A stretch of 54,761 nucleotides of DNA, from contig JAGLZA010000140.1 of the NCBI GenBank assembly GCA_023131835.1, positions 1 through 54,761 of the forward strand. The letters are read 5' to 3'. Positions 5,469 to 25,766 of this stretch are shown piece after piece. How positions within the stretch are numbered: the stretch's first letter is position 1; each line of letters begins with the position of its first letter. The stretch is from Caldifarciminota bacterium. Its GTDB lineage: Bacteria; Hydrothermota; UBA3072. A program made the translations under genes and the position numbers. The notes beneath the pieces were generated by a model that did no database searches, was not told the origin of the DNA, and saw only the letters and a list, made by a program, of their open reading frames with translations.

Positions 5469-5566
5469 TATAGGGACGGGGCATTAATTTGTGACATTAG
5501 TAATTGAGTTGAAAGAAAACTATTTAACCATTTTACCAATTAACCATTCAACTTTTTTTCACTACC

Positions 5567-5594: not shown

Positions 5595-5613
5595 AACAAC
5601 CAGGGAAGGTAAT

Positions 5614-5697: not shown

Positions 5698-5707
5698 GGA
5701 GGATTAG

Positions 5708-8785: not shown

Positions 8786-8813
8786 TTGACCTTTTATTCT
8801 CTTCTGTTATTAT
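8786..8813 (+). promoter_or_regulatory. Predicted promoter of the long OB-fold/ABC gene set
   Basis: TTGACC (8786-8791) and TATTAT (8808-8813) are spaced by 16 bases. A start near 8820 would give a leader of about 40 bases before AGGAGG (8851-8856) and ATG 8863. No equally good promoter is seen in the following 17 kb, which supports a single transcription unit. Confidence 0.6.
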
Positions 8814-8862
8814 GTAGATTGATGTTTTTTATAAACTCATGTTAAACAAGAGGAGGTTCTTT

Positions 8863-10359
8863 ATGAAACGTTTTATCTTGTTGTTTGTTCTCTTATTGAT
8901 TCCCGCATCTTTGTTTGCTTTGGTAGATACCCTATCGATTCCAGAGATACAGGGCTATGGAAGTTCTACTCCTTATGAGAATGATACGATAACCACCTAT
9001 GGCATTGTGACTGCTGTTGTCCCACCCCATAACGGAGGATACTACCTCCAGGATGCGAGTTGCGATACCTTCGCAGGCATATTCGTTTTCACCGGTACCT
9101 ATGCCTATCCTGATGTCCGTCGAGGAGACTCGGTTGAGGTCACAGGCATCGTTACCGAATTTTACGAAATGACCGAACTGGGCTATATCCAGGCAGAGAA
9201 TATCCTTGGGACTGCCACGGTCCCCACCCCCATACTTTCACAAACAGGAGATGCAGGCCAGGAAAAATATGAGGGGATGCTTGTTGCAGTAATAACTACC
9301 CTGTGCACCAATGATTCACTCGGGTACGGAGAATGGGAGGTTAACGATGGTTCGGGCGCTGTCAGGATAGACGATCAGATATACCACTTTAAGCCGGAAC
9401 AGGGTGGTTACTACGATGTAACAGGGCCACTTAATTATTCTTATTCTTATTTTAAGATAGAGCCAAGGGACTATCGTGATGTCTTAGGTCCTGGCGCCTC
9501 ACCCACCTCAAAGAGTATCTATGATGTTCAATATACTACAGCACCATCCGGTGATTCACCCCTGATAGATACACTGGTCAAAATATACGGTATTGTTACA
9601 GGTATCTTCAATGATGGTTTTTATATAGAGGAAGCATCAGGTGGTGAATGGAATGGGGTCTATGTTTACTCTGACCTCACGGCAAAAAACCTGAATAGAG
9701 GGGATTCCTGTTCGGTCGTTGGTAATGTAAGCGAATATAAAGGATTCACAGAGATAGGTAATTCACCTGTGTGGCAGATATTTGCCTCAGGACATTCACT
9801 TCCAACACCCATAGAGATAACAACTGGAGGTGTAGGGGAAAGTTTAGAAGGGTTATTCGTTCACCTCGATTCAGCAGTGTGTATTGCATCAGGATTACAG
9901 CCATCAGGTTACTACTATGGAATGAGCGATAATGCGGGAATCGATACACTGCTCGTAGCAGATCTGGGTGGTGATTATGTGTACAATATAGGCGAGTCAT
10001 ACGAATTATACGGATTAATAAAAACGGATACCTTCAGTTTTGTGCTTGAACCACGGGATTCAGCTGATATTGTAAACCTTTCGGGTGTTGAAGAAACTGA
10101 TATTACAGAAAACCTCAGACTCTCTCTCTCTTATATCGGGAGAAAGATTCAGATACAGTTCTCGATCCCTGAGCAATCAAGGGTTCGGCTCTCTGTTTAT
10201 GACCCAATAGGACGATTGATTCAAGACCTATATAACGGAACCCCTGATGCAGGTAGATACAATATCGAGTTAAAGAGTCAATCCCTACCAACAGGACTCT
10301 ACTTCATTCACTTGAGAGCTAACAGTAAGAGTAGAACCGCAAAGTTCATGGTGTTATAG
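8863..10359 (+). CDS. Secreted tandem OB-fold (YhcR-type) protein with T9SS-like tail
   Basis: I start at ATG 8863 because AGGAGG lies six bases upstream and a classic signal peptide (MKRFILLFVLLLIPASLFA) follows; an in-frame ATG at 8839 lacks both. The 498-residue product has two copies of an OB-fold-like unit: about residues 25-205 beginning IPEIQGYGSSTPY, and about 215-405 beginning SIYDVQYTTAPSG. Shared signatures are ITTYGIVTAV, GYYLQDA and RGDSVEVTG. These resemble the YhcR OB-fold repeats that accompany extracellular nucleases, but no nuclease domain is seen here. The C-terminus (LSVYDPIGRLIQDLY...PTGLYFIHLR) is a type A T9SS-like sorting domain. The likely role is binding a nucleic acid or other polymer at the surface. 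Confidence 0.65.
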   Translation: MKRFILLFVLLLIPASLFALVDTLSIPEIQGYGSSTPYENDTITTYGIVTAVVPPHNGGYYLQDASCDTFAGIFVFTGTYAYPDVRRGDSVEVTGIVTEFYEMTELGYIQAENILGTATVPTPILSQTGDAGQEKYEGMLVAVITTLCTNDSLGYGEWEVNDGSGAVRIDDQIYHFKPEQGGYYDVTGPLNYSYSYFKIEPRDYRDVLGPGASPTSKSIYDVQYTTAPSGDSPLIDTLVKIYGIVTGIFNDGFYIEEASGGEWNGVYVYSDLTAKNLNRGDSCSVVGNVSEYKGFTEIGNSPVWQIFASGHSLPTPIEITTGGVGESLEGLFVHLDSAVCIASGLQPSGYYYGMSDNAGIDTLLVADLGGDYVYNIGESYELYGLIKTDTFSFVLEPRDSADIVNLSGVEETDITENLRLSLSYIGRKIQIQFSIPEQSRVRLSVYDPIGRLIQDLYNGTPDAGRYNIELKSQSLPTGLYFIHLRANSKSRTAKFMVL

Positions 10360-10361
10360 TT

Positions 10362-13300
10362 ATGAAACATCTGCTTCGCTCAATAATACTTATAACTCTA
10401 CTCTTTTCCATAACGGCTTTTGCGCAAGCGTACCACACTATCTATGAGATACAGGGGCAGGGTCCCGATTCCCCGTACGATGGTCAGGTAGTTACCACAA
10501 GGGGAATAGTAACCGGAGTATTTGCACAGGGTTTCTACATCGAAGAGAGACCGGGTGGCGAATGGAGAGGGATCTATGTCTACACCACATCATCCCCAAC
10601 GGTTTCAAGGGAAGATTCCGTTGAAGTAACCGGTGAGATTGATGAATACTGGAACCTAACTGAGTTTACAAACGACCCCACTGTAACAGTTCTTGCCTCA
10701 GGGGTTTCACTACCTGGACCAACAGATACAACAACCGGGGAACTGGGGCAGGAAAAATATGAAGGGGTCTATGCTGTGATTCATAATCTTATAGTCACCG
10801 ATACATCTGGTTTTGGACAATATGATCAATGGTATGTAGATGATGGTTCCGGGGTGTTGATGATAGATTATTCCTTGATGATAGGGGTTCAGGGAAGTTA
10901 CGCATATCAACCCATACCCGGAGATACAATTGCCGAGATAAGGGGAATTAGCAACTATTCATTCTGGAATTATAAACTGGTTCCAAGAAGGAATAATGAT
11001 ATAATCTTAACCAAGTTATGGACGACTATATACGAAATTCAAGGACAGGATTCTCTCTCTCCCCTCCAAGGTGATACTGTAACCACCTATGGGGTGGTCT
11101 CTGCTGTTAGAAATGGGGAACACAAGGGATATTTCTTAACAGAACATCCTGGTGGTGAATGGAGAGGGATATTCGTTTTTACCGACGCAACCCCTGGGAT
11201 GACAAGAGGTGATTCAATTAAGGTTACAGGCTATGTTCGTGAGTTCTCACCGGATGGGATCGGGACTCGAACCGAATTAGTCCTTCTTTCTGATTCACTC
11301 ATTGGAAGCGGTTCTCTCCCCTCCCCTACCTCCACATCCACCAATAACCTCTCGGATGAGAAATTCGAAGGGGTTATTGTTTCTGTAAGCGATGCACAAT
11401 GTTACAGCACACCTGATACCGCAGGCATCTGGGAGGTGAATGATGGTTCAGGAACTGCATCTGTTGCTAATCTTCTATATGCTTATTCCCCAACAATAGG
11501 GTATCAATATGATATGAGTGGTATCGTTGACTACTGGCGGGGCTTTGTTCTCTTACCCAGGGATGCTTCGGATATTATAGACCTGAGTGCACCGATAACG
11601 GCTTCTATCTATGACATCCAGTATGATAGAATACCGGGCACCGACTCCTCAAAATATATTAAATACGAAAGTGTTATAACCTATGGAATTGTAACCGGTG
11701 TGTTCAGTCAGGGTTTCTTTATCGAAGAAAATCCCGGGGGTGCCTGGAGAGGTATATATGTATATGGCTCAAATCCCAGTGTATCCAGAGGAGATTCTGT
11801 TGAAGTGAGGGGCAAGATAGTGGAATACTGGAACACGACTGAATTCACTGATAACCCTTCAGTTACAATCCTCTCATCCGACAGAGAATTACCTGAACCC
11901 GTGGATACAACGACACAGGAATTAGGACAGGAGAAATATGAAGGGGTATACTGCAGGATAAAGGATGCTTTAGTTACCACCATAATGGATTACAACGATG
12001 AGTGGTATCTAAATGATGGTTCCGGAGAACTAATGGTGGATTACACAATGCTTATAGAAAAACAGGGAAGTTATTACTATGAACCTGTTCCTGGTGATAC
12101 TATATTCCGAATGGACGGCATCCTGCATTATTCCTTTTATCATTACAAACTCGTTCCAAGAGAGGATAGAGACCTTCAGTTGAACCCTGTTAAAACAGAC
12201 CTTATTTTAAGTCCTGAAAGGGCATTCAATAATGATACCATGGGAATACAACTATTCGTGAGCTTCCCGGATTCGGTTGATGGCCCACTCAAAGGTTTGA
12301 AGATAACCCTGAATACTGTTTTTGACTGGGATCTCTCTTCTTTATCACTACTTGGGTCCGGAACCGAAGGCGCGGTAATCGATGTATACGATAATCTGAT
12401 TACAATCGATTCCCTCTCTGTCGTTGATTCAATGATTGTGAACTTCGGAGAACAGCTGGTACCCGATACTACCGGAGAGTTTGGGTCCACAATAGAAACC
12501 TCCTTTGATGGATTGACTTTTCGGGAGATAAAACCTTCTCCGTCATTAGAGATAATCACTCCACCCGATAGCCTGTATCCAATATCAACAATCCAGGGGA
12601 CAGGATACGAATCACCCTTCAATGGAGAGAATGTGTGGCTACAGGGAATAATTACTACCCCTAATTTTTCTGAAGATGGATATAATGGTTATGTTCAGGA
12701 TTCCACTGGTGGGATAAATATCTACTCCAGTTCTACCCTCGGACTTCAATTTGGATATCGCTATCTGATGTGGGGCGGGATAGAAGAATACAACGGTATC
12801 ACAGAATTCAAACCTGAGCCTGACAGCATAATTCTTCTCTCAAAAAGGAACAATCCTGTAATACCAGAGACGCTTTCTCTCTCTGTTGGTCTATCTGAAC
12901 AACGTGAAGGTAAATTGATAACAATAACAGATGCAATAGTAATAGAACCACCAACCATCCCATCCGGAGGTGGATATAACTGCTCTGTTCGGAATGGACA
13001 GACTGCTCTGAATTTGCGTATTTCAACGACTACCGATATTGTAGATTCCCTTAGCCTTGATAAAAATACGAGATGGGATATAACAGGTGTCGTAGGACAA
13101 TATGACCCGGAAGAACCATATACATCCGGTTATCAGTTACTGCCTCGATTTATATCCGACTTCGTCGCAGGAGAAATCGAAGGTGATACGACAAAACTGG
13201 CACTATCTATCGAACCCAATCCCTTTGCCCCGGATCAGGGAAAGATCGCTCGCATTACCGTTTCTGCACCAGCAAACTATCGCATAAACGGGTGGCTATA

Positions 13301-13499
13301 TGATGTAGTGGGCAGGGAAATCAAACAGATAATAACCAATCATCCCGGACCCTTAACAGTAAACTGGCTGGGAAAGGATAAACAGGGTAGAAGGGTAACC
13401 ATAGGCACCTATATACTTCATATTGAAGCCACTTCACCACTTGGTAAGATTACATCTATCACACAACCCATTGTAGTAGCCACGGATTTGGGAGGTTAA
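10362..13499 (+). CDS. Large secreted multi-OB-fold (YhcR-type) protein
   Basis: The 1045-residue protein follows the previous gene by two bases and has a clear signal peptide (MKHLLRSIILITLLFSITAFAQA). It contains four OB-like units beginning near residues 26, 221, 415 and 738. Units one and three are nearly duplicates (GFYIEERPGGEWRGIYVY and GFFIEENPGGAWRGIYVY; EYWNLTEF and EYWNTTEF), which indicates recent internal duplication. A beta-rich insert at about 610-720 separates unit three from unit four. The end (SIEPNPFAPDQGK...GRRVTIGTYILHIEA) resembles an FlgD-type Ig-like domain rather than the type A tail of its neighbour. No catalytic residues are apparent. It probably works with the adjacent gene as an extracellular binding protein. 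Confidence 0.65.
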   Translation: MKHLLRSIILITLLFSITAFAQAYHTIYEIQGQGPDSPYDGQVVTTRGIVTGVFAQGFYIEERPGGEWRGIYVYTTSSPTVSREDSVEVTGEIDEYWNLTEFTNDPTVTVLASGVSLPGPTDTTTGELGQEKYEGVYAVIHNLIVTDTSGFGQYDQWYVDDGSGVLMIDYSLMIGVQGSYAYQPIPGDTIAEIRGISNYSFWNYKLVPRRNNDIILTKLWTTIYEIQGQDSLSPLQGDTVTTYGVVSAVRNGEHKGYFLTEHPGGEWRGIFVFTDATPGMTRGDSIKVTGYVREFSPDGIGTRTELVLLSDSLIGSGSLPSPTSTSTNNLSDEKFEGVIVSVSDAQCYSTPDTAGIWEVNDGSGTASVANLLYAYSPTIGYQYDMSGIVDYWRGFVLLPRDASDIIDLSAPITASIYDIQYDRIPGTDSSKYIKYESVITYGIVTGVFSQGFFIEENPGGAWRGIYVYGSNPSVSRGDSVEVRGKIVEYWNTTEFTDNPSVTILSSDRELPEPVDTTTQELGQEKYEGVYCRIKDALVTTIMDYNDEWYLNDGSGELMVDYTMLIEKQGSYYYEPVPGDTIFRMDGILHYSFYHYKLVPREDRDLQLNPVKTDLILSPERAFNNDTMGIQLFVSFPDSVDGPLKGLKITLNTVFDWDLSSLSLLGSGTEGAVIDVYDNLITIDSLSVVDSMIVNFGEQLVPDTTGEFGSTIETSFDGLTFREIKPSPSLEIITPPDSLYPISTIQGTGYESPFNGENVWLQGIITTPNFSEDGYNGYVQDSTGGINIYSSSTLGLQFGYRYLMWGGIEEYNGITEFKPEPDSIILLSKRNNPVIPETLSLSVGLSEQREGKLITITDAIVIEPPTIPSGGGYNCSVRNGQTALNLRISTTTDIVDSLSLDKNTRWDITGVVGQYDPEEPYTSGYQLLPRFISDFVAGEIEGDTTKLALSIEPNPFAPDQGKIARITVSAPANYRINGWLYDVVGREIKQIITNHPGPLTVNWLGKDKQGRRVTIGTYILHIEATSPLGKITSITQPIVVATDLGG

Positions 13500-13500
13500 A

Positions 13501-14274
13501 ATGGTATTGTTAATTATTTTTTCGGTGTTTGAAGGATTGGGCTATTCAATTGACGCTGCAGGGATGGGTGGAAATACTGTGTCTATCAGGGATTGCGCAT
13601 TACAGTCCAATCAGGCCTCTCTATCATACAAAAAAGATATATCTTTTTCCTACTCTTTTAATAAAGAATTCTCGATTTGTGAGATACATCGCGCAAACCT
13701 CTCATGGAACAGCATAGGTATGGGTATAATCTCCAGACAGACCCCTGACCCTGGTTCAGGTCCTGACCTCTCTGGTGAGATGGAAGTGCGTATTGCCCAT
13801 GGAATATCTCTATCAGACCAATTCAGACTCGGATATTCAATAAATGGATACTACCTCCGGATGAAGGATTACGGTAACGACATGGCAGGTGGATTCGATC
13901 TCTCGTTTCTGGGAGAGGTATACAAGAACTGGGTTGTTGGTGTAAATGCACATAACCTGAACCGTCCAAGGATGGGTAGGGAAAATTCATATACCCTTCC
14001 CTGGTCACTCTCGGTTGGGGTGAGTTATAACCCATATCCCGGAGTAATAACACATTTTGCCTTTACAAGAGAAGAGGATTATCCTCTCCAGGTCCACTTC
14101 GGACAACGCTTCCAGATATCAGACCAGTTCATTCTACAGGCAGGGGTCCAGAACGAACCGCTGCGCCTCTCCTTTGGTGTGGTTGTCCATACCGAATGGG
14201 TCTCATTCCATTACTCCGTAAGGAATCATTCCCGCATGCCACTCTCTCATTGGGTGGGGGTGAGTTATAAATGA
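13501..14274 (+). CDS. PorV/PorQ-like outer-membrane barrel protein
   Basis: GGGAGG precedes ATG 13501. The mature start has SIDAAGMGGNTVSIRDCALQ, which matches the region GARxxGMGGAxVAxxDD at the beginning of PorV/PorQ/UPF0164 proteins, and the remainder is a repeating pattern of amphipathic strands ending HWVGVSYK. PorV-type proteins act in T9SS as shuttles or anchors for secreted cargo. This one sits beside proteins with sorting domains, so it may serve them. At 257 residues it is shorter than typical PorV (about 380) and nearer to PorQ. The leader MVLLIIFSVFEGLG lacks any positive charge. Confidence 0.6.
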   Translation: MVLLIIFSVFEGLGYSIDAAGMGGNTVSIRDCALQSNQASLSYKKDISFSYSFNKEFSICEIHRANLSWNSIGMGIISRQTPDPGSGPDLSGEMEVRIAHGISLSDQFRLGYSINGYYLRMKDYGNDMAGGFDLSFLGEVYKNWVVGVNAHNLNRPRMGRENSYTLPWSLSVGVSYNPYPGVITHFAFTREEDYPLQVHFGQRFQISDQFILQAGVQNEPLRLSFGVVVHTEWVSFHYSVRNHSRMPLSHWVGVSYK

Positions 14275-16640
14275 TACTCTTATTGATACTGATTAATGTC
14301 CTGGATATCAATACAGCACCCCTTTCCGAACTTAAGAGTCTGCCCCTCTCCGGTGAAAAGGTCCAGGAGGTATATAATCTCAAACAGGCAAGGGGGTATC
14401 TACGATCCGTCTATGAATTAAGAGAGGTCCTCTCGGCTGAGGATTTCAATAAAATAAAGGAATTGATAAGAATCACCCCCCCGGAAGAAGAGGACTGGAC
14501 TGCTGTTTATATAGAACAGTTACAGGAGAGGTTGGCATCCGAGGAAGGCCCAACACAGAGCGCAATTGACCACTGGCAAACTATCCTCCTTGAGCCAATC
14601 GATATAAATAAAGCCAGTATTGACGATATACTGCAATTTGACCGCGTAAACCTCATTGATGCAGTATCTGCAATCAAATATAGGACACAGTTCAGAAAAC
14701 TCCGATATGTCAGTGATCTTGAAGACGCCCCCTATCTATCTTCATACGGATTCAGGAATATGAGAAATTTCCTCACAGCAGGAGAACCACAAAAGATAGG
14801 TTTCCCATTGGACGGTTTTGTAAGGATGGAAATGACTCACAAGAATTCCACAAGGGAGCAGGGTTTTGATATCCTATCACCCGATGAAATAACCACCTCC
14901 CTCAATCAGGTAATAAGCGATCTCGAGGATACATCTGCAACTCTGTATAAGAGACTAATTGCAGATGGTTGGAGCGAGAGTGACATATTGAACTTTCAGG
15001 ATAGACTCAAGGGAGAAGAAAATGAAATCCAATCGGGGAGATGGACAGAATCTTATTCAGGTAAGTTTCATACCACTTATGGGGAAAATATCTTTCTCGG
15101 AGGAGGAGCAGGAAGATATTACAGAAGTGGTTACGCTGGTGTTCAGAAAATAGGACCATTAAAAAATCTTGTAATCGGGGATTATCACTACTCCACCGGG
15201 ATGGGACTCGTTTTTGATAACTCTCCTGATTCAAGGCCCCGCTCAATAGAACGGGTAAATGGTCTATTCGGAGAAGCAACAGATAATCCCCTCTTCAAAG
15301 CAAGGGGATTGGGAGTGCATCTTGAAAAATGGCGTCTCAACTCCTATCTTTTCTACTCCAGGGATAAGAAATCTGGTATACCCAATCCTGACAACACAAT
15401 CAATTGCTACTTTCCCAATAGATATCATCTGAAAGAGTTTGATGATATAATAGATGAACAAATCATGGGAGGCCATCTGGGATTTGACATCTCTGATATA
15501 TTCTCCATCCCTTTTGGAACCTATATAGGCATAAATGGATATCGAGCAGTTTACGGAGATTCTATACGTCCTGACATCTCTACAATAGACATACCCAACG
15601 ATAACAATGAACTTGGACCTTCTTATACGGCACTTTTCAGCGGGAAGCAGAGGGATATCGGTGGAATAGAAGGAAGAATAGTCTACAGAAACTTCGGGAT
15701 TCAGGGAGAATATGCAAAGGAGAGATACCGTGGTTTTGCCTATGCCTTTTTAGCAAGGGTTCTCTATAATAACATATATCTGCTCTTTCATCGAAGACAC
15801 TACGAGGTGGATTTTGATAATCCATACAGCAGGGGTTTCTGGGAGCAGGAAAGATTTGACGATACTCCTTTAGAAAAATCATATAGGGTTCTTGACCCGC
15901 TCTTTTCAGACCTATCCGAATATCCTGTACCCAAACCAGAGGATGGATACTATATAGAAACCCGATATCAATTCTCAAGGCAAATAACCCTGACAAGAGC
16001 CTATCTTGACCTATGGAAAAATCTAACAGAGGGAACCTCGAATATGCGACTTCAGTGGGAAATGGAATTTCGTCCTGTATACCCTTTACGCTTCAGGATA
16101 AAACATAAATATCAGGAAAAGAATAGAAACAAGGTTTCAGCAACTACTGTATCTAAAACCAATGAGTTGACCTTTAGAACCTTTGTTTTGCTACCAAATC
16201 AAGATTATCTGGGCTTCAGGGTTAGATATGGTAGAGTTCTCTTAACTCAAAGTCCCCGTTACTCATTGGACCAAATCATCGATGGTGGTTATATATCAGT
16301 ATTCTATGAACATCACTTCTCACCGAGATTGAGTGTAAAAGGGGGAATAGCCTACTGGAAGACAGACGGAATGAGTCAATGGACATTTGAAGACATAGGT
16401 CTTGATTTCCTCTATGGTGATGGTAAGAAACTCTATGTTTCTGTTCTCGATCGTTTAAGTGATAATCTCTACCTGCGGTTCAAGTTCCGTGTAAAAAACG
16501 AGCTCTATCCACACTGGGGATTAAAAGAGAGCGGAGAAGAATACTATAACACGGAAGGAGAATTGCTGGAGAATCCCTCAGATTTTCTTGATGAATCTTC
16601 AATATATTCCGGAAATATAAACCTAACATGGTGGTGGTGA
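14271..16640 (+). CDS. Outer-membrane barrel with N-terminal helix-hairpin-helix repeats
   Basis: The ATG overlaps the previous stop by four bases. After a leader of only about 11 residues (MILLLILINVL) come two ComEA-like helix-hairpin-helix units: DINTAPLSELKSLP...YLRSVYELREVL at about 12-50 and DINKASIDDILQFD...RKLRYVSDLEDA at about 107-160. From about residue 180 to 789 the protein is a long series of beta strands ending NINLTWWW, consistent with a large barrel. HhH motifs in ComEA bind DNA without sequence preference. An exported barrel carrying them would place a DNA-binding module at the outer membrane. Similar HhH-barrel proteins of unknown function are known in Bacteroidota. The function here is inferred only. 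Confidence 0.6.
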   Translation: MILLLILINVLDINTAPLSELKSLPLSGEKVQEVYNLKQARGYLRSVYELREVLSAEDFNKIKELIRITPPEEEDWTAVYIEQLQERLASEEGPTQSAIDHWQTILLEPIDINKASIDDILQFDRVNLIDAVSAIKYRTQFRKLRYVSDLEDAPYLSSYGFRNMRNFLTAGEPQKIGFPLDGFVRMEMTHKNSTREQGFDILSPDEITTSLNQVISDLEDTSATLYKRLIADGWSESDILNFQDRLKGEENEIQSGRWTESYSGKFHTTYGENIFLGGGAGRYYRSGYAGVQKIGPLKNLVIGDYHYSTGMGLVFDNSPDSRPRSIERVNGLFGEATDNPLFKARGLGVHLEKWRLNSYLFYSRDKKSGIPNPDNTINCYFPNRYHLKEFDDIIDEQIMGGHLGFDISDIFSIPFGTYIGINGYRAVYGDSIRPDISTIDIPNDNNELGPSYTALFSGKQRDIGGIEGRIVYRNFGIQGEYAKERYRGFAYAFLARVLYNNIYLLFHRRHYEVDFDNPYSRGFWEQERFDDTPLEKSYRVLDPLFSDLSEYPVPKPEDGYYIETRYQFSRQITLTRAYLDLWKNLTEGTSNMRLQWEMEFRPVYPLRFRIKHKYQEKNRNKVSATTVSKTNELTFRTFVLLPNQDYLGFRVRYGRVLLTQSPRYSLDQIIDGGYISVFYEHHFSPRLSVKGGIAYWKTDGMSQWTFEDIGLDFLYGDGKKLYVSVLDRLSDNLYLRFKFRVKNELYPHWGLKESGEEYYNTEGELLENPSDFLDESSIYSGNINLTWWW

Positions 16641-16644
16641 TAAT

Positions 16645-17829: not shown

Positions 17830-17838
17830 GGTGATAAG

Positions 17839-18378
17839 ATGTTTAATATAATATTCCTAATCTTTGCGATTTCTGCAGAACCAGAGGTTCTGGCAAACAG
17901 GGATTATGTCCCCGGACTTGTAAAACTCTTTGATAGTGCAGAAAAAACCATTGATATAACTATGTTTTCTGCTGGTCATTATCCTGACCATCCGGAGGGA
18001 GTCAATAGGGTCCTTTATGAATCCATATTCAGGGCAGCAAAAAGAGGTGTTCTGGTGAGAATAATCCTTGACGCCTCATCCTGGAATCCGAACAATACAA
18101 GAAAAAATGTAATGGTAGCAGATTTCTTCAGGGAGAATGGTATAGAGGAAGTATATTTTGACCCTCCTGAGGTAACAACACACACAAAAGCATTGATAGT
18201 AGACTCTGTCCTGTGTGTTATAGGCTCCACTAACTGGACTTATTATGCCCTTGCTAATAATAATGAAACCGCTGTTCTGATAAATTCGGAAACCCTGGGG
18301 CTGGAATTGGAAGAACGATTTGCTGACCTCCTCTCTGTATCTACAAAGGAGACCCCACTAATGGAAGAGGAGGATTGA
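17839..18378 (+). CDS. Secreted single-HKD phospholipase D/Nuc-type phosphodiesterase
   Basis: The 179-residue protein has a short leader (MFNIIFLIFAISA) and one HKD motif: H115, K117 and D122 in HTKALIVD, followed by GSTNW at 129-133 and the downstream N/E positions. Size and single-motif form match Nuc, the dimeric endonuclease of plasmid pKM101 (about 177 residues), better than two-motif phospholipases. It should cleave phosphodiester bonds outside the cytoplasm through a covalent His intermediate. GAGGTGAT precedes the ATG. Its place between DNA-binding-like surface proteins and a nucleotidase-like protein supports a nucleic acid substrate, though a lipid substrate cannot be excluded. Confidence 0.75.
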   Translation: MFNIIFLIFAISAEPEVLANRDYVPGLVKLFDSAEKTIDITMFSAGHYPDHPEGVNRVLYESIFRAAKRGVLVRIILDASSWNPNNTRKNVMVADFFRENGIEEVYFDPPEVTTHTKALIVDSVLCVIGSTNWTYYALANNNETAVLINSETLGLELEERFADLLSVSTKETPLMEEED

Positions 18379-19232
18379 TGCTTCTTCTTCTAATCCTTAC
18401 AGGTTTATGGGGTGTAAAGACTGATAAGGAAATAAGAATAATCTATACCAATGACATCAATGGAGCATTAGAATCATCGAAAGCATACTGGGTTTCTAAA
18501 GAAATGCCACCAGACCTTGGTAACGCCAAATCCCTTGAGGTTTTCGTAAATTTCGAAAGGAAATCCAATGATATTCTTCTTATCAATTCAGGAAATCTTG
18601 CATCATTACCTACATCAGGGGATAAAAAACCTCCTGAAGAACTCGCCAGATTTTTATCCGACCTACACTATGATGCGTCACTCATCGGAACCAATGAGCT
18701 CTCATTCGGTAAAGAGTTTCTCAAGGAACTCTTAGCGAAATCCTCTACTCCGTTCCTGTCAGCTAACCTAAAAGGTAGTCAGAAAGGTTTTATCATCACC
18801 AGCAAAAACACTATAAAGATAGGTATCTTTGGTATCACATCCCCCTATGCACATCTATTTGTTCCGGGGAGATACAGAAAGGAGATGGAATTTGATGCGG
18901 ATATAGTGGAAGCGGCAAAACGCTCTGTTAAAGAGTTGCAATCCGGGGGGGCCGAGATAATTATCGGATTATCTGATGCAGGGTTTACCAGAGATAGCAC
19001 TCTTGCCGAAAGTGTAGATGGAATAGATTGTATAATAGGTGCGAGTAATAGGGGATGGACTTTGAGAGAGCCTTACGAAACTCCTACAAAGCATACCCTC
19101 TTCTGCAAAGGATATACCAACCTGTCAAGCGCAGGAAGATTGGTGCTTTACCTGGATGAGAATAATAGTATTGCGGGATACGACCATAAGTTGATCACCC
19201 TCTACGTGGAGGAATACCCTCCTTACAAATGA
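18378..19232 (+). CDS. 5'-nucleotidase-like protein lacking metal ligands (pseudoenzyme)
   Basis: I place the start at ATG 18378, four bases after GAGGAGG and sharing one base with the previous stop; the TTG at 18375 is a worse start. The 284-residue product has the layout of the metallophosphatase half of UshA/5'-nucleotidases. However, the metal-binding motifs are changed: DxH is D26-I-N28, the GD motif region reads N70-S-G-N73, GNHE reads G104-T-N-E107, the next His region reads LSDAG at 199-202, and GHxH reads GASN at 221-224. It has no C-terminal nucleotide-binding domain. The fold is probably kept while catalysis is lost, suggesting a binding or chaperone-like role outside the membrane. 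Confidence 0.65.
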   Translation: MLLLLILTGLWGVKTDKEIRIIYTNDINGALESSKAYWVSKEMPPDLGNAKSLEVFVNFERKSNDILLINSGNLASLPTSGDKKPPEELARFLSDLHYDASLIGTNELSFGKEFLKELLAKSSTPFLSANLKGSQKGFIITSKNTIKIGIFGITSPYAHLFVPGRYRKEMEFDADIVEAAKRSVKELQSGGAEIIIGLSDAGFTRDSTLAESVDGIDCIIGASNRGWTLREPYETPTKHTLFCKGYTNLSSAGRLVLYLDENNSIAGYDHKLITLYVEEYPPYK

Positions 19233-20170
19233 AACGACGCCTCATAAACCCCTACCTTGCCATTCTCTACCTAATCCCGGTAATAATTATAATAGGAGTA
19301 TTCCGTTTCTACCCCATTCTATTCTCCATCAGGGCAAGTCTCTATAGATGGGGAATGGGAGGCCCGGGGACATTCACTGGCTTAAAGAACTACTTAACCA
19401 TACTTACCGATAAATACTTCTGGCAGGCCTTTACCAATACCTTGTGGTATACAGTATTTACTATTCCCCTTACGCTCTTCATCTCTCTCTTTATTGCCAT
19501 TCTATTGAATAATAAATTGAAGGGCATAGGAATACTTCGAACTGTATACTTCCTCCCCGTGGTAACTTCAATCGTAGCAATTTCAATGGTTTGGAAATGG
19601 ATATATCATCCGGAAATAGGGCTTGCAAATTATTTACTGGGTTTACTACACATACCACCTAAAAATTGGCTCTCCGAGTGGCGTGGTATATTTGAACTAA
19701 TCACAAATAGGAGTCTCCCATTATTCCTTAAAGGACCCTCACTTGCTCTTCTGTCTATCGTCATTATGACCGTCTGGAAGGGATTGGGATATAATGTAGT
19801 CATATTTCTTGCGGGACTGCAAAATATCTCTAAGGAATACTATGAAGCAGCAGAGGTAGACGGAGCTTCAGGCTTTTCTGTATTTAAGAATATCACCTGG
19901 CCTTTAATCTCACCAACAACCTTTTATGTCCTTATGATGACCACCATTGTTTCTTTTAAGGTCTTCGCACCGGTCTGGTTAATGACCGGCCCCCCAAAAG
20001 GTGGCCCGCTCGGGACGACCAATGTCCTGGTATATCATCTATTTGACAATGCATTTAATTATTCGCGTTATGGCTACGGTTCTGCAATTTCTATATTCCT
20101 CTTTTTAGTTATACTATCACTTACGGTTCTGCAGAAGAAGGTAGTTGAACCAAGGGTTCATTATGGTTAA
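19229..20170 (+). CDS. ABC sugar/glycerol-phosphate-type permease, first subunit (MalF/UgpA type)
   Basis: The 313-residue membrane protein has six predicted membrane segments and the EAA loop EYYEAAEVDGASGFSVFKNITWPLISPT (about 209-236), which contacts the ATPase in CUT1-family importers. The ATG overlaps the previous stop by four bases. A GGAGG-AATAC-CCTCC inverted repeat at 19208-19222 could hide the ribosome site unless the upstream gene is translated. The binding protein and ATPase of the same importer follow further on. A 529-base repeat block separates this gene from its partner permease. Confidence 0.85.
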   Translation: MKRRLINPYLAILYLIPVIIIIGVFRFYPILFSIRASLYRWGMGGPGTFTGLKNYLTILTDKYFWQAFTNTLWYTVFTIPLTLFISLFIAILLNNKLKGIGILRTVYFLPVVTSIVAISMVWKWIYHPEIGLANYLLGLLHIPPKNWLSEWRGIFELITNRSLPLFLKGPSLALLSIVIMTVWKGLGYNVVIFLAGLQNISKEYYEAAEVDGASGFSVFKNITWPLISPTTFYVLMMTTIVSFKVFAPVWLMTGPPKGGPLGTTNVLVYHLFDNAFNYSRYGYGSAISIFLFLVILSLTVLQKKVVEPRVHYG

Positions 20171-20699
20171 ACCCCATCCCCACCCCATTTATTCACCACA
20201 AAGGACACAAAGAACACAGAGAGAAACACAGAGAAAATTTTGGCTTTGTCCAAAGTTGTATGATAGACTATTTAAAAAGCAGGTGTATTTTTATGCTTAG
20301 TTGCTCGGTAATATCGTTCAGAAAACGAGGTCAATTTCCCCAGCGAGGAAATTGTGGCTCCCGCTCTCGGCCTCGCTCCTCCCTAAATCTAAAGATTTCG
20401 GGAGACCATGCCCGCTCGGCCTCCGAGAGGGTTTCTAAACGATATCACCTCGCACTGATTGAAATGGATACCCTCAAGCTCGGAGTCGGAAGTAGGGGTA
20501 ATTCACGAATCGCCCATTACAGAAGCGGCTTCCAAACCGCGATTCAACCCTTTTGGAGTAGCAGAGATTGCTCTGCAATTTCCCCTTTGCGCGAAACAAG
20601 TTTCGCTACTCCATTATCGGGATGCCGCTCCTACACATGTGGGAGTGGGTTTCTGCCCACGATTCTGGAGCAAACGGTGTCAACAGGTGAGGGAATGAG
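20171..20699. repeat. Repeat block inserted between the two permease genes
   Basis: There is no convincing gene; open frames here are repeat-derived. The block begins with the CACCACAAAGGACACAAAG word family, then a 143-base branched inverted repeat (20307-20449, listed separately), then a GC-richer zone of small palindromes. These include GGGGTAATTCACGAATCGCCC-like and GCGGCTTCC/AACCGC words near 20505-20545 and GTGGG-TTTCT-GCCCAC near 20646-20660. CCTACA occurs at 20630-20635. MalF- and MalG-type genes are normally adjacent, so this looks like inserted repeat DNA within a working operon. Confidence 0.65.
20307..20449. repeat. Branched inverted-repeat element, possible structured RNA
   Basis: Outer arms 20307-20324 and 20432-20449 pair at 16 of 18 positions. 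Inside are three further perfect or near-perfect stems: AATTTCC (20333-20339) with GGAAATT (20347-20353), CTCTCGG (20364-20370) with CCGAGAG (20423-20429), and within the latter CTCCC-T-AAATCT (20379-20390) with AGATTT-C-GGGAG (20393-20404). The whole can fold into a closed branched structure on either strand. It may be a mobile palindromic element, a processed RNA or a cruciform-forming site. Confidence 0.55.
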
Positions 20700-21518
20700 A
20701 TGACCAGGACAAAGGCAATTACATTATATGTGCTTCTTGTTTTAGGTTCGCTCCTTGCTCTCCTCCCCTTCTATTGGATGATTACCACATCCTTGAAATC
20801 ACCAGTTGAAGCGGTTCGGTTCCCCCCTACTATGATTCCGGAGAACATCGTATGGCAAAATTACCCGGAGGCGCTTAGAGTAGCACCCTTTGGAAGATAT
20901 TTCTTTAATACGATTATTATAGCCATATTTACTATGATTGGAGTTCTGATTACATCATCCCTCGCTGCTTTTACATTCACATTCATCAAATTTCGAGGCA
21001 GGGAATTTCTATTTATCTCATTCCTTGCAATGATGATGGTTCCACTTCCCGTATATATAATACCGGGGTATCTCATACTTGCCAGGTTGGGATGGCTCGA
21101 TACATATATGGCCCTGATCGTTCCCTGGGTAGTTAATATATTCTCTATATTCCTACTTCGGCAACATTTCAAATCAATACCAATATCTATTTTTGAATCG
21201 GCAATGATAGATGGTTGCTCCTCTTTTCAATTTCTCACAAAGATAGCACTGCCTATGGTAAAACCAGCTCTCATAACCATAACAATATTCTCCCTGATTG
21301 GGTCATGGAATACCTTCATCTGGCCACTGGTTATGACAACCTCAGATGCAATTCGTCCTGTTCAGGTTGGTCTTGCCTACTTTATGCAAGAACAGAGCAC
21401 AGACTATACCCTGTTATCAGCTGCTTCGACACTGGTGATAATACCGGTGATTATTATATTCTTTATCTTCCAGCGCAGGATTATAAGTAGTTATATGAAA
21501 TCAGGAGTAAAGGGATAG
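20700..21518 (+). CDS. ABC sugar/glycerol-phosphate-type permease, second subunit (MalG/UgpE type)
   Basis: The 272-residue protein is a CUT1-family inner-membrane permease with an N-terminal segment (VLLVLGSLLALLPFYWMITTSLK) typical of MalG. Its EAA loop is ESAMIDGCSSFQFLTKIALP (about 165-184). About six membrane segments are visible. AGGTGAGGG lies seven bases before the ATG. It should pair with the permease at 19229-20170 and the ATPase at 24747-25766. Confidence 0.85.
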   Translation: MTRTKAITLYVLLVLGSLLALLPFYWMITTSLKSPVEAVRFPPTMIPENIVWQNYPEALRVAPFGRYFFNTIIIAIFTMIGVLITSSLAAFTFTFIKFRGREFLFISFLAMMMVPLPVYIIPGYLILARLGWLDTYMALIVPWVVNIFSIFLLRQHFKSIPISIFESAMIDGCSSFQFLTKIALPMVKPALITITIFSLIGSWNTFIWPLVMTTSDAIRPVQVGLAYFMQEQSTDYTLLSAASTLVIIPVIIIFFIFQRRIISSYMKSGVKG

Positions 21519-21637: not shown

Positions 21638-22882
21638 ATGAAAAATAAAATACTATTATTAATCATTGCATTTTTAGCAGCATTTCCAGGATGCAAAAAG
21701 GAAGAGAGCAAGATTACGACGGTAGTCTTCTGGCACGCAATGGGTGGCCCACTTGGAGATGCATTAGAAGAATTAATAAATCAATTCAATGATTCCCATC
21801 CTGATATCCTGATAGAATCAATATCAATGGGCAACTATAATGCGTTGTCACAAAAGATAATGGCATCTATTCTGTCCCACAGAACCCCAACCATCGCCCA
21901 GGTCTATTCATCATGGACTACCAATCTCTATGAATCCAGGGTTATTGAACCCCTTGAGAACTATATAAAAGGTGAGAACGGTCTAAAGGAAGAAGAGATA
22001 ACGGACTTTTACCCGGTATTCATTAAAGATAATACAATAGATGGGAAACTGATAACCCTTCCCTTTAACAAAAGTATTTATGCGTATTATTACAATATCG
22101 ATCTCTTTCTCGCGGAAGGAATAGCAGAATTCCCGGAGACCTGGACAGAACTACTCAAAACTGCAAAAATGCTCCAGAAGGATGACCAACCAGTAACAGC
22201 CTTTGGCATATCAGTGGGCTTCTTCGAATCACTCCTGTATGCCTTTGGTGGTAGGATGGTGGATGAGGATAACAATCCCGCTTTCTATAGTAAAGAAGGC
22301 ATTGAGGCTTTGCAATTCATTAAAGACCTCATTTATAAGTACAGGGTTGCAAAACTCACCACAGGCTTCCAACATCAGGATCAATTTATCGCAGAGAAGA
22401 TAGCCTTTATTATGGGAACATCGGTTTCTTATTCATTTATAATGAAGGCAAAACCTAATTTCAGGGTTGGGATTGCACCCCTGCCAAAGGAAGACACCAC
22501 AGGCGTTATGATTATGGGCACCAATATCGCCCTATTTGCAGATAAACCTGCTAAAGAAAAGGAAGCAGCCTGGAAATTCATCAAGTGGTTTATATCTCCC
22601 AAACAACAAGCAAAATGGGCATTGGGAACCGGATATGTCCCTGTGCGCAAGAGTGCCAATGAACTCCCGGAAATCAAGGATTACTTCAAACAAATATCAG
22701 GGTTAAAAAAAGTATGGGATCAATTATATTACGCAGAATTGGAACCTCCTGAACCTGCCTGGCTCTTTGGTAGAAAGATATTCTCACAGGTAGTTCTCGA
22801 ACCGGTGATACTTGGTGAAATGGATGCAGAGGAACGGCTAAAAATCGGACAAAAGGAGGTAGAAATATCATTTCAACGATAA
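21638..22882 (+). CDS. ABC substrate-binding lipoprotein, UgpB/MalE type
   Basis: The 414-residue protein has a lipoprotein signal (MKNKILLLIIAFLAAFPGC) with the acylated cysteine expected at residue 19. Its beginning, VVFWHAMGGPLGDALEELINQFNDSHPD, and later GNYNALSQKI and PFNKSIYAYYYN resemble UgpB, which binds sn-glycerol-3-phosphate and glycerophosphodiesters, more than maltose proteins. Substrate cannot be settled by eye. No strong ribosome site is seen (AGAAGAG about 12 bases upstream). Its 3' end carries the Shine-Dalgarno sequence of the next gene. Confidence 0.82.
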   Translation: MKNKILLLIIAFLAAFPGCKKEESKITTVVFWHAMGGPLGDALEELINQFNDSHPDILIESISMGNYNALSQKIMASILSHRTPTIAQVYSSWTTNLYESRVIEPLENYIKGENGLKEEEITDFYPVFIKDNTIDGKLITLPFNKSIYAYYYNIDLFLAEGIAEFPETWTELLKTAKMLQKDDQPVTAFGISVGFFESLLYAFGGRMVDEDNNPAFYSKEGIEALQFIKDLIYKYRVAKLTTGFQHQDQFIAEKIAFIMGTSVSYSFIMKAKPNFRVGIAPLPKEDTTGVMIMGTNIALFADKPAKEKEAAWKFIKWFISPKQQAKWALGTGYVPVRKSANELPEIKDYFKQISGLKKVWDQLYYAELEPPEPAWLFGRKIFSQVVLEPVILGEMDAEERLKIGQKEVEISFQR

Positions 22883-24765
22883 TAATAATTATGCTGCTTG
22901 CTGGAATGAATATAGATAAATGGACCATCAAACAGTGGAACTCCTTTCAAACATATACATTCGGGGATATTACAATCCCTGATAATGGCTACCTCATCCT
23001 TGGAAGGAATGCAACTAAATCTGAGTTTGAAGCGCACTGGGGGACTTTTGGGTCCAATGTAATCTATGTAAACTCTTTCAATAATTGTCCGATTATAAAC
23101 GGAGGAGAGACATATGCCCTCTATGATTCTCTGGATACAAGGATCGATACAACATACCTGATTATGTCATCAGGTAAGTGTTATCAAAGAGGCGAAACGA
23201 ACACCAATAACTGGACGGAATTAAGTGCTGATAGTGCCAACCCGGGATCCGGAGCTCTGGGAGGACATAGCGTGGGCGTTGTAATTACAGAGACTTCAGA
23301 TGCACCTGGTAGTGGTAATTTTATATATGAATTCATCGAACTCTACTACGATGTCGGAACAGGTAATACCCCTCCTGAGATACATAATGTAGAGCAACAT
23401 CCATTTAATCCCCCTTCCAACAGAAAAGCAATAATCAGAGCAAATATAACCGATGACTATGGAATTGCTTCGGATACACTTTACTGGAATCTAAACGGCG
23501 GAGGTTTTTATAAAAAATCGTCTGACAGCATAAATACGACATATTTTTATTATTCCGTAGACCAGGAGGTTGAAGAAGATACTATTACTTATTTCATTAC
23601 AGTATGGGATGACTCTAATGAAGTAGCAGTATCCGACACATATAGTTATACTGTTACAGATAGTAATCATTTCAATGTGCTCTTTGATTTTACAAAGGAA
23701 GAGACTGCCGGGGAGGCAGATTGGATAATTGATGATGATATGCCCGAGCCCTACCCTCTAACTCCCTGGGACCAGGAAGATTGGCTTGGTGCGATATCCG
23801 ACTGGGGTTATGGATTAGTCAGAGAGGGTCACTTCTCTGTAAAAACACTTCCTCCTGATAGTTCTATTACCTATGGTGAGGCAACCCCCCTGGATCTATC
23901 CAATTTCGATATATTCATCGTTTGTGAACCGCAGAACCCATTCACTCTATCAGAAAAGACCGCTATCTTTGATTTTGTCCGAGACGGCGGAGGTCTATTT
24001 ATGGTCGGAGACCATTATTTGTCAGATAGAAATAGCAACGGATGGGATTCTCCAAGAATATGGAACGACCTCGGAGCATCCGATTCCTTTGGTATACACT
24101 TTAATGTCAGCGGAGACCCTAACAATAACTTTAGCGATAACTCATATAATTATTCAGCCACTGACTCGGTAATAAGCGGAAACTTTGGAATTCCTGATGA
24201 CTATTATGGCTATTGGGGAGGGACAGCGATGACCCTTTATCCGGGTAAAAATAGTTATGTAATGGGTCATATATGGAAGACTGGTTCTTCCCAGGGAAAT
24301 TATGATGTAATGCTTGCAACAGCAAGATTCGGTGATGGAAGAGTAGCAGGCACCGGAGATTCATCGCCCATAGATGACGGGACAGGAAACCCGGGCAACA
24401 CCTTATACGATGGATGGGGAGATGGTTCTGACTCTATAATAATATTGAATACAACTTATTGGCTATGCGCGGTAAGTTCCAGTGGAATCTTAGAAGATAA
24501 TATAGAGGAGGAAGAAGAAAGAATAATAGTTAGCTCCATGGATAACAACCTTATACTTACATACTCAAGCAATAACGCAAGACCCGGGCAACTATCTATC
24601 TACGACTGTTTGGGAAGACTTATCAAGAACGAAAGAAATAATGTTTCAATACGGATATCAGGAAAATATCAGGGTATATATTTTCTTATTGTTATCGATA
24701 CAAATGGAATTCATAGATACAAACTTAACCTATTTGGAGGAGGTAGATGTCTTCTGTCAAAATAG
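22867..24765 (+). CDS. Exported lamin-tail-like / GATase-like domain protein
   Basis: A strong ribosome site AAAGGAGGT (22852-22860) is followed six bases later by ATC ATT at 22867-22872. These open a hydrophobic leader (ISTIIIIMLLAG) that runs into ATG 22891, so initiation may use a non-AUG codon; ATG 22891 is the conservative start. Residues after the leader resemble the second half of a lamin-tail domain (DKWTIKQWN, IPDNGYLILGRN, GGETYALYD). A stretch like its first half (VVITETSDAPG...YEFIELYYD) comes later. An Ig-like domain (about 165-260), a GATase/ThuA-like domain (FDFVRDGGGLFMVGDH) and a weak T9SS-like tail follow. Four of five importer parts surround it, so it may deliver substrate. 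The end overlaps the ATPase gene by 19 bases. Confidence 0.5.
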   Translation: MISTIIIIMLLAGMNIDKWTIKQWNSFQTYTFGDITIPDNGYLILGRNATKSEFEAHWGTFGSNVIYVNSFNNCPIINGGETYALYDSLDTRIDTTYLIMSSGKCYQRGETNTNNWTELSADSANPGSGALGGHSVGVVITETSDAPGSGNFIYEFIELYYDVGTGNTPPEIHNVEQHPFNPPSNRKAIIRANITDDYGIASDTLYWNLNGGGFYKKSSDSINTTYFYYSVDQEVEEDTITYFITVWDDSNEVAVSDTYSYTVTDSNHFNVLFDFTKEETAGEADWIIDDDMPEPYPLTPWDQEDWLGAISDWGYGLVREGHFSVKTLPPDSSITYGEATPLDLSNFDIFIVCEPQNPFTLSEKTAIFDFVRDGGGLFMVGDHYLSDRNSNGWDSPRIWNDLGASDSFGIHFNVSGDPNNNFSDNSYNYSATDSVISGNFGIPDDYYGYWGGTAMTLYPGKNSYVMGHIWKTGSSQGNYDVMLATARFGDGRVAGTGDSSPIDDGTGNPGNTLYDGWGDGSDSIIILNTTYWLCAVSSSGILEDNIEEEEERIIVSSMDNNLILTYSSNNARPGQLSIYDCLGRLIKNERNNVSIRISGKYQGIYFLIVIDTNGIHRYKLNLFGGGRCLLSK

Positions 24766-25766
24766 AGAATATAACAAAAAAATTCGGTGAGGTGGTTGCA
24801 GTAAAAGATCTATCCCTGGACATAAAAGAGGGAGAATTCATAGTTCTACTCGGGCCATCAGGTTGTGGAAAAACGACCATCCTCCGAATTGTTGCAGGGC
24901 TTGAACATCCTACGAAAGGTAAGATTTATATTGGAAGTAAAGAAGTTACCTATATGAGGCCAAAAGAAAGAAATGTAGCAATGGTATTCCAATCATATTC
25001 ACTCTATCCCCATCTATCAGCTTATGATAATATTGCATTCCCTTTGCGAATAGCAAAGACAAATAAGGACAGGATAAAAAAACATGTAATGGATACAGCT
25101 ACCTTACTGGGAATAAATGACCTCCTGCACAAGAAACCAAGGGAATTATCAGGGGGACAACGGCAGAGGGTGGCTGTGGGAAGGGCTATTATAAGAGAAC
25201 CTTCTGTCTTCCTATTTGATGAACCCTTATCCAATCTTGATGCAAAATTGAGGGTACAGATGAGGGCAGAACTCGCACGACTTCACAACGAATTAAAGGT
25301 TACTTCCATCTATGTCACTCACGACCAGGTAGAGGCGATGACTCTGGGTGAAAGGATAGCCGTGGTAAAGGACGGAATTCTCCTGCAGGTCGGAAAACCT
25401 ATGGAAATCTATGAAGATCCAAAGAATGCATTTGTAGCATCATTTTTAGGTTCTCCAGCAATGAATCTTCTCCAAAGCGAAAAATATAAATTCTTATCCA
25501 AATATGGAAAAGATAAAATCATAGGAATAAGACCTGAGGACATCTCTATTGTAAAATCCGGAATAGAAGCCACACTGGATGTCGCTGAAATGATTGGGAG
25601 TGAAATCATTCTTTATCTCAAATTAGAAGATGAAACGATAATAGTAAAGACTGATTCACACACTTATGCTGAGCTAAAACCCGGCAGCAAGGTCAATCTT
25701 AAACTTAAAGAGGATAGGATATATCTCTTCTCGGCAACTACAGAGGAGAGAATCAAAAACAACTAG
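24747..25766 (+). CDS. ABC importer ATPase, MalK/UgpC type
   Basis: The 339-residue protein shows all ATPase motifs: Walker A GPSGCGKT (36-43), Q-loop Q82, LSGGQ (134-138), Walker B FLFDEP (155-160) and the switch His192. A TOBE-like regulatory domain follows from about residue 235. It should drive the permease pair at 19229-20170 and 20700-21518. GGAGGAGGT sits just before the ATG, inside the end of the upstream gene. Such ATPases are sometimes shared by several importers, so it need not be specific. Confidence 0.9.
   Translation: MSSVKIENITKKFGEVVAVKDLSLDIKEGEFIVLLGPSGCGKTTILRIVAGLEHPTKGKIYIGSKEVTYMRPKERNVAMVFQSYSLYPHLSAYDNIAFPLRIAKTNKDRIKKHVMDTATLLGINDLLHKKPRELSGGQRQRVAVGRAIIREPSVFLFDEPLSNLDAKLRVQMRAELARLHNELKVTSIYVTHDQVEAMTLGERIAVVKDGILLQVGKPMEIYEDPKNAFVASFLGSPAMNLLQSEKYKFLSKYGKDKIIGIRPEDISIVKSGIEATLDVAEMIGSEIILYLKLEDETIIVKTDSHTYAELKPGSKVNLKLKEDRIYLFSATTEERIKNN

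Follow-up and report, generated by a model that had tools for sequence, protein, structure and literature searches.

A conserved bacterial gene set with a predicted HhH outer-membrane barrel and a UgpB-type importer: a candidate system for uptake of extracellular nucleic acid

Results

A conserved set of twelve genes that co-occur in relatives

A stretch of 54,761 nucleotides (the window), which is the entire contig JAGLZA010000140.1 (C47) of a Caldifarciminota bacterium (Hydrothermota; assembly GCA_023131835.1, 3.89 Mb in 537 contigs; G000 below), carries 12 same-strand genes between positions 8839 and 25766 (+), as read from the open reading frames of the window. They encode two tandem-OB proteins, a PorV/PorQ-like protein, a predicted outer-membrane barrel fused to helix-hairpin-helix (HhH) domains, a second presumed barrel (BAR2), a single-HKD phosphodiesterase (PLD), an UshA-like pseudoenzyme, the UgpA-, UgpE-, UgpB- and UgpC-type parts of an ATP-binding cassette (ABC) importer, and a protein with a C-terminus of the Por/type IX secretion system (T9SS) type. 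An earlier sequence-only reading had counted about eleven co-directional genes; the shared direction held and the number is 12. By gene order and co-occurrence it exceeds chance by a wide margin; it is a real set, conserved and coherent. We favour, at slightly better than even chances, the reading that it is a system that captures, cuts and imports extracellular nucleic acid.

The HhH barrel was found in 16 of the 40 genomes compared (genomes, loci and families are given by the handles G, L and f where they must be told apart). A close UgpA orthologue (E ≤ 5e-115) was present in all 16 carriers and in none of the 24 other genomes, so that the co-occurrence anticipated by the sequence-only reading was indeed found; three non-carriers have weaker relatives (best 1.1e-49), and the Fisher value for UgpA, with phylogeny ignored, was 1.6e-11. 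UgpB (E ≤ 1e-30) was present in 16/16 carriers and 1/24 others (G015), relatives of OB protein B (E ≤ 1e-30) in 15/16 carriers and 2/24 others (the least complete genomes, 75% and 77%), and PLD (E ≤ 1e-30) in 14/16 carriers and 3/24 others. The carrier that has no OB relative is G001, whose contig begins within the HhH barrel. Carriers occur in 7 of the 20 families, and within f1, f2 and f9 the barrel and the importer differ together (G007 and G025 are incomplete).

Gene order is conserved around the HhH barrel

When 84,980 species genomes were scanned with an alignment of 13 HhH barrels, 52 loci came up; their records are titled WOR-3, Hydrothermota, TA06, Cloacimonadota (including Tenebribacter), Acetofilamentum, unnamed bacteria and one Armatimonadota metagenome-assembled genome. 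Because the scan rests on two short peptide patterns, non-detection in other lineages says little. Gene order was counted over 59 loci, after exclusion of ten G-handle loci whose contigs agree in length with named records; two locus pairs (L049/L073 and L104/L105) each come from one genome. BAR2 lies immediately after the HhH barrel in 41 of the 51 loci with room for it, an UshA-like gene follows within the next four genes in 30/40 loci, and a PorQ-like gene stands at most two genes upstream of the barrel in 28/44. The core is thus OB, PorQ-like, HhH barrel, BAR2, in some loci PLD, and UshA-like, and it is not complete everywhere. The importer genes UgpA/UgpE/UgpB are linked 3' of this core in the window genome and in G001 of the same family, and also in G006, which belongs to the same order and whose contig ends after UgpE. 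In f15, UgpB stands directly before an OB gene (L131 and L132), and in L089 (Tenebribacter, Cloacimonadota) a gene for a relative of UgpB (38% identical, E 1e-76) is found some 9 kb ahead of the HhH barrel. In one Cloacimonadota locus (L100, 3844-8972), a PNP_UDP_1 gene of the purine nucleoside phosphorylase type heads the run before OB, PorQ-like and HhH barrel genes; this run also has DksA-like and LspA-like genes, identified by eye.

The OB proteins carry tandem OB units

OB protein A (8839-10359, +) is presumably secreted and has two tandem-OB units (residues 33-215 and 226-411), followed by a C-terminal sorting domain of the Por/T9SS type, and OB protein B (10362-13499, +) has four units (26-214, 222-405, 415-605 and 741-934) and a C-terminus with a weak FlgD-Ig-like match. 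Each of them matches the ExeM/NucH model over its OB part (E 3e-24 and 8.8e-32; the best-matching segments cover model positions 2-121 and 1-131 of 546). Their whole-model scores, 85.8 and 110.7 bits, are under the cut-off of 300, and no nuclease domain is among their Pfam matches. OB protein B scored 25.4 bits against DUF5689 (Pfam cut-off 28.6). Among the OB proteins of relatives, 3 of the 10 scanned as whole proteins (from 14 non-window OB proteins found) pass this cut-off, with 39.4, 34.7 and 31.7 bits, and 12 of 32 OB units match DUF5689 at E ≤ 0.01.

A model of the tandem-OB unit, built from 32 sequences, has two OB folds (pLDDT 94). The ExeM/NucH matches bear out the OB regions of the earlier assignment, YhcR being grouped with the ExeM/NucH extracellular nucleases as a similar system. 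When the unit was searched with Foldseek, six PDB chains matched at E ≤ 0.001, of which five are HIN domains (two from one HIN-dsDNA complex) and one is an engineered OB protein. For the first OB fold, VIA-align gave aminoacyl-tRNA synthetase, engineered, RPA and MCM OB folds at Z near 11. For the most part these neighbours bind nucleic acid, but the fold by itself proves nothing; a family missing from the structure-match lists, for the OB unit as for the barrel, is not excluded by its absence.

The presumed outer-membrane proteins include a barrel fused to HhH domains

The PorV/PorQ-like protein (13501-14274, +), a presumed outer-membrane barrel, is encoded upstream of the HhH barrel in relatives too. 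Its kinship with PorV stands as a likeness, at 36.6 bits (15.6 bits for the other of the two models), and falls short of family membership, for which the cut-off is 90. The HhH barrel (14271-16640, +) combines two HhH domains (residues ~18-62 and 117-167) with a predicted outer-membrane barrel of ~24 strands (180-789); the sequence-only reading had recognized a barrel with HhH motifs. HHH_3 was matched in 13 of 13 HhH barrels scanned, and the window protein scored 19.5 bits against the ComEA model, under the cut-off of 152.35. The structural model, built from 13 sequences (pLDDT 75, pTM 0.71), has helices at both HhH places and 24 strands of at least 8 residues. Ranked by Z, AlgE and DcaP were the top structural matches (14.9); the longest alignments at low root-mean-square deviation (rmsd) were to the barrel of the Mtr complex (385 residues, rmsd 5.1, Z 13.1) and to the ushers FimD/PapC (341-377 residues, rmsd 3.8-5.3, Z 12.5-14.3). 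These matches back a large barrel and not any particular function. BAR2 (16645-17829, +) is a second presumed barrel, a Cloacimonadota relative of which matches PF03349 (OMPP1/FadL) at its cut-off. No carboxypeptidase-regulatory domain (CarboxypepD_reg) was matched in the window's HhH barrel, PorQ-like protein or BAR2, nor in the 13 HhH barrels.

Some relatives have further genes beside the barrel. A protein of 97-101 amino acids (aa) is encoded between the PorQ-like protein and the HhH barrel in L102 (6668-6973) and similarly in L076, L090, L100 and L104; those inspected by eye have a C-terminal hydrophobic stretch, and the L102 copy has no Pfam match above cut-off. In the Cloacimonadota locus L084 (9270-9770, minus strand), and similarly in L085 and L089, genes for a prepilin-like protein of 166 aa and a PHP-like protein of 528 aa (both by eye) diverge beside the HhH barrel; the L084 prepilin-like protein has no Pfam match at E ≤ 0.01.

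An intact PLD accompanies a degenerate UshA-like protein

PLD (17839-18378, +) matches PLDc_2 and has a hydrophobic, signal-like N-terminus by eye. Its HxK(x)4D motif and GSTNW are intact, and the HKD motif (HxK(x)4D, GSxN) is likewise intact in the 12 module PLD relatives aligned with it, one distant relative (L051) being left out of the alignment. It scored 50.6 bits against the NucT model, below the cut-off of 211; cardiolipin-synthase models ranked below NucT and DrmC, and the solved structure that it matches best is that of the endonuclease 1byr (Nuc, 5.3e-6). PLD is thus nearest to the Nuc/NucT nucleases, and nuclease activity is predicted; the single-HKD Nuc-type phosphodiesterase of the earlier annotation was confirmed.

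The neighbouring UshA-like protein (18375-19232, +; 285 aa) has 5'-nucleotidases as its sequence matches and consists of the N-domain only. Eight of the nine metal/catalytic positions checked, which we take to be those of E. coli UshA, are substituted, and 5_nucleotid_C was not matched in the window protein (Pfam), whereas the two intact copies scanned (relatives in L084 and L039) have the C-terminal domain. Because metal and catalytic residues and the C-terminal domain are lost, the 5'-nucleotidase step proposed earlier is disfavoured. This degeneracy follows PLD across loci. Among 35 UshA-like proteins checked, all 11 copies from PLD loci lost 7 or 8 of the nine positions, and 23 of the 24 copies from loci that have no PLD keep all nine. 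The sole exception, in L067 (7693-9195), is a full-length UshA-like protein that has lost its metal ligands in a locus devoid of PLD. Three more PLD-paired copies away from the HhH barrel (L138, L139 and L140) lost 8 or 9 positions. Furthermore, the two carriers that have no PLD (G022 and G028) are the two with an intact UshA-like enzyme adjoining BAR2.

On a tree of 55 HhH barrels (of 59 HhH-barrel loci; L049 and three fragments of <340 aa were left out), PLD presence changed twice and the state of UshA on three occasions; one independent pair of changes falls on supported branches. Since the changes are so few, no significance is claimed for a swap of PLD gain and UshA loss; PLD presence and UshA degeneracy are clearly co-distributed, over few events. 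PLD seems to have taken over cutting from a live metallophosphatase, with the dead UshA-like protein kept as a partner. In f13 (L035, L037, L038 and L041), two PLD genes stand in tandem.

The binding protein of the importer keeps phosphate-coordinating residues

The importer comprises a UgpA-type permease (19229-20170, +), assigned by family search and by its co-occurrence with the HhH barrel, a UgpE-type permease (20700-21518, +; BPD_transp_1 in Pfam), a UgpB-type substrate-binding protein (21638-22882, +; SBP_bac_8) and an ATPase of the MsmX/UgpC type by eye (24747-25766, +), for which G001 has a relative that is 75% identical and follows UgpB and the lamin-tail-like gene. Of the complete UgpB-type importer described earlier, the two permeases and the binding protein are confirmed by family search.

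UgpB scored 115.1 bits against the NCBI UgpB model, below the cut-off of 411. Among solved structures, the chains closest to it are those of the 7c0f series (E about 5e-38), followed by E. coli UgpB (1.1e-25 and 1.5e-25). In a marine UgpB, Tyr64, Ser143, Ser266 and Tyr342 coordinate phosphate, and these Tyr/Ser residues are reported to be strictly conserved in proteins that bind glycerol-3-phosphate (G3P), GPC or U3G (a dinucleotide) and not in glucose binders; the U3G-binding protein is ascribed there to Thermus thermophilus (PMC12718374). We aligned 18 UgpB sequences from 17 genomes, including G015, which has no HhH barrel, and leaving out second copies of G028, G018 and G029. Y64, S143, G303, Y342 and R393 are kept in 18/18, and position 266 is Ser or Thr in 18/18 (Thr in the window). 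Trp191 of the G3P clamp is Ala in all 18; the Trp188 column, where the alignment is unsure, has Trp in 5/18 and Pro in the window. The phosphate-coordinating residues are kept, and a phosphorylated or phosphodiester product is therefore plausible; the residue pattern would fit a phosphodiester ligand bigger than G3P. As the ligand of UgpB, G3P itself is made less probable, and not eliminated, by the absence of Trp191.

Between UgpB and the ATPase lies the gene for the protein with the Por/T9SS-type C-terminus (22891-24765, +), which has a GldG/ABC_transp_aux-like part and a weak lamin-tail-like N-terminus and takes the same place in G000 and G001. The lamin-tail assignment of the sequence-only reading is weak: the lamin-tail domain (LTD) was not matched in the window protein, and the G001 relative scored 27.3 bits against a cut-off of 34.3. 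The gene may start further upstream, as its frame is open at 22861-22891 after GGAGG with a non-ATG start; by eye, signal-like hydrophobic codons run from an ATT or ATC upstream of the ATG.

Locus layout

The successive intergenic gaps are 2, 1, -4, 4, 9, -4, -4, 529, 119, 8 and -19 bases. Genes 1-8 (8839-20170) form a tight unit, because their seven junctions span -4 to 9 bases; genes that mostly overlap or touch were thus found among the first eight, but then come a stretch of 529 bases and a gap of 119. The 529 bases (20171-20699, +) are a dispersed-repeat mosaic that splits the importer genes between UgpA and UgpE, with at least 46 other matches within the genome (40 of 217 candidates scored) and no match to phage records. 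This mosaic is outside the mechanism, and a single transcript across it into UgpE-UgpC is a candidate at most. By eye, the stretch before 8839 (7800-8750) resembles the same mosaic. The genome, at 3.9 Mb, is larger than those of 39 relatives (1.4-3.3 Mb).

A promoter-like site at 8786 matches at 10/12 positions. Promoter-like sites in the window are at chance, with 44 observed versus 48.6 ± 7.5 in shuffles, and because these counts do not exceed chance the claim of one promoter for the genes is unsupported. Two terminator-like hairpins lie 3' of the last gene (25782-25864, +); the window has 23 terminator-like sites versus 15.0 ± 4.4 in shuffles.

Discussion

What was observed here is the content of the gene set, its conserved order and its co-occurrence, an intact HKD motif, the lost UshA ligands and the retained phosphate-binding residues. 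Where each protein lies, how it binds, cuts or transports, which way transport runs and what the ligand is are all inferred, as follows. Tandem-OB proteins, exported to the surface, would bind DNA or RNA. The strand would cross the outer membrane via the large HhH barrel, held by its two HhH domains, and the PorQ-like and FadL-like barrels may assist this passage. The exported Nuc-type PLD would cut the strand into short pieces, with the dead UshA-like protein as its non-catalytic partner. A short phosphodiester, probably a dinucleotide or an oligonucleotide, would then be bound by UgpB and imported by UgpAEC. The sequence-only reading had likewise proposed capture, cutting and import of nucleic acid; the parts belong together by conserved order and by co-occurrence even where they are unlinked, several of them are of a nucleic-acid type, PLD has an intact HKD motif and UgpB keeps the phosphate-binding residues, but the evidence speaks against its 5'-nucleotidase step.

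Several observations weigh against this reading. Not all proteins with OB or HhH folds bind nucleic acid, and the TM-scores of the OB unit against HIN domains are low (0.34-0.40). The HhH barrel model is of moderate quality and reveals neither pore nor direction. PLD matches 1byr little better than it matches a phospholipase (7.2e-6) or a cardiolipin hydrolase (1.9e-5). Glu88, kept in 16/18 UgpB sequences, is Ser in the window and G001, and the 7c0f series is presumably the Thermus U3G protein, the match title reading only 'Sugar ABC transporter, periplasmic sugar-binding protein'. The importer is linked to the core in G000, G001 and G006 and lies elsewhere in 14 other genomes inspected; the co-occurrence counts carry no phylogeny correction, and contrasts within families come from f1, f2 and f9 only. 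PurH is present in 37/40 genomes and 15/16 carriers and gives no sign of purine auxotrophy, which was rejected as a driver of scavenging on this one gene.

A different use of much the same parts would be DNA uptake for natural transformation, in which OB/DUF5689 proteins would catch double-stranded DNA, the HhH barrel would pass it, PLD would degrade or nick it and ComEC would take single strands in, with the importer separate or salvaging the degraded strand. The transformation of Riemerella anatipestifer lends this weight: the genes essential there include RA0C_RS04920 (a DUF5689 surface protein), its neighbour RS04915 (barrel), RS02645 (HhH), RS09020 (DUF1343), ComEC, DprA, ComF and RecA, and no pilus homologues are reported from its genome (PMC8459023). 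DUF5689 passes its cut-off in three of the ten OB proteins scanned, ComEC is present in 38/40 and DprA in 40/40 genomes (both in G000), and in L138 of G035 a PLD-PLD-UshA run is followed on the same strand by four genes and then ComEC. The latter run (4898-12933, minus strand) reads PLD-PLD-UshA-GTPase (by eye)-GreA-like-DnaJ-small protein-ComEC, overlapping as called but for one 21-base gap. However, the presence of ComEC and DprA does not follow that of the HhH barrel, and the strict tie to an ABC importer would be unexpected. Twenty further ComEC loci (15 carrier, 5 non-carrier) gave no HhH-barrel, BAR2, PLD or UshA match within 6.5 kb, OB genes not being searched for and several loci being cut by contig ends; ComEC linkage as a rule was rejected on these loci, and PorQ-model matches lie near ComEC in L151 and L154. 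Type II/IV-type ATPases (T2SSE, 39/40 genomes) and Secretin (39/40) are present in all 16 carriers, which led us to reject pilus replacement. On balance we regard transformation as an unlikely reading.

More doubtful still is the scavenging of phospholipids or glycerophosphodiesters, akin to the phospholipid headgroups that the sequence-only reading gave as a side option, whereby PLD would cut headgroups, FadL-like barrels would take up the lipid parts and UgpB-AEC would import glycerophosphodiesters. PLDc_2 includes phospholipases, and such enzymes stand close behind 1byr among the relatives of PLD; one BAR2 relative is FadL/OMPP1-like, and the UgpB residues suit the binding of GPC no less than that of a dinucleotide. 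Yet this would not account for the tandem-OB proteins and HhH domains, among solved structures PLD is closest to the Nuc endonuclease, and cardiolipin-synthase models score under NucT and DrmC. Least probable of all appears a module for envelope assembly or surface display that does not import anything and co-occurs with the importer through shared ancestry. PorV/PorQ-like and T9SS-type proteins are secretion parts, the FimD/PapC ushers are among the longest structural matches, and the f13 core is flanked by lptB-like/rpoN-like genes on one side and by aldehyde-dehydrogenase/nrdR-like genes on the other (by eye). Against it, the barrel and importer are gained or lost together within f1, f2 and f9, and such a module does not require a nuclease-type protein.

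Capture, cutting and import of nucleic acid, the reading that we prefer, would have partial counterparts in several known systems. The gene set joins none of them: it lacks features of UshA, falls under the NucT, ExeM/NucH, UgpB, ComEA and PorV/PorQ cut-offs, and mixes features of several. It shares with the Riemerella transformation genes an outer-membrane barrel, HhH, and ComEC and DprA in the genome, and its presumed surface protein beside the barrel is DUF5689-like, just under the cut-off in the window. DUF5689 was named in PMC8459023 only, within the literature searched. HhH and barrel are separate in Riemerella and one protein here; since both are essential there though separate, and are fused here, we infer that they act together. 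Here, moreover, a nuclease, an UshA-like protein, a co-occurring ABC importer, type II/IV-type ATPases and secretins are also present, and CarboxypepD_reg is not matched. The OB regions resemble the OB part of ExeM/NucH, but the rest of that model is unmatched, and the nuclease stands apart as an HKD protein with a different fold. H. pylori NucT is an outer-membrane-associated nuclease for purine salvage from DNA; PLD, a single-HKD protein with a signal-like N-terminus, resembles Nuc/NucT but is under the NucT cut-offs and is tied to outer-membrane parts and an importer. The binding protein is SBP_bac_8/UgpB-like with the phosphate-coordinating Tyr/Ser set of the UgpB family (the U3G binder of Thermus and the GPC binder of M. 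tuberculosis), but it is devoid of Trp191 and its genes run with outer-membrane parts. Sus-type loci follow a concept of surface capture, outer-membrane passage, periplasmic cutting and import, and the same scheme is proposed here, although SusC/SusD are not among the family matches of the window proteins and the parts are of nucleic-acid type.

Tentatively, and with less confidence than in the general reading, the gene set could be an undescribed outer-membrane machine for nucleic-acid import, with an HhH barrel as channel, tandem-OB receptors, a nuclease that displaced a metallophosphatase whose dead copy was kept, and a dedicated oligonucleotide ABC importer; it would be a nucleic-acid counterpart of Sus in WOR-3 and, with the outer-membrane core at least, in Cloacimonadota. 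No description of an HhH-fused barrel or of such a gene set was found in the titles and abstract openings of the literature searched, which mostly did not extend to subscription papers. Sedimentary DNA and RNA are a sizeable source of phosphorus and nitrogen, and how nucleic-acid polymers pass the outer membrane independently of pili is, to our knowledge, an open question. In Riemerella, a screen has identified genes that are essential but have no known mechanism; parts of like kinds occur here in other phyla, with HhH fused to the barrel and an importer tied in. The gene set thereby offers a testable role for DUF5689 and opens the question whether nutrient and genetic uptake may share an outer-membrane route.

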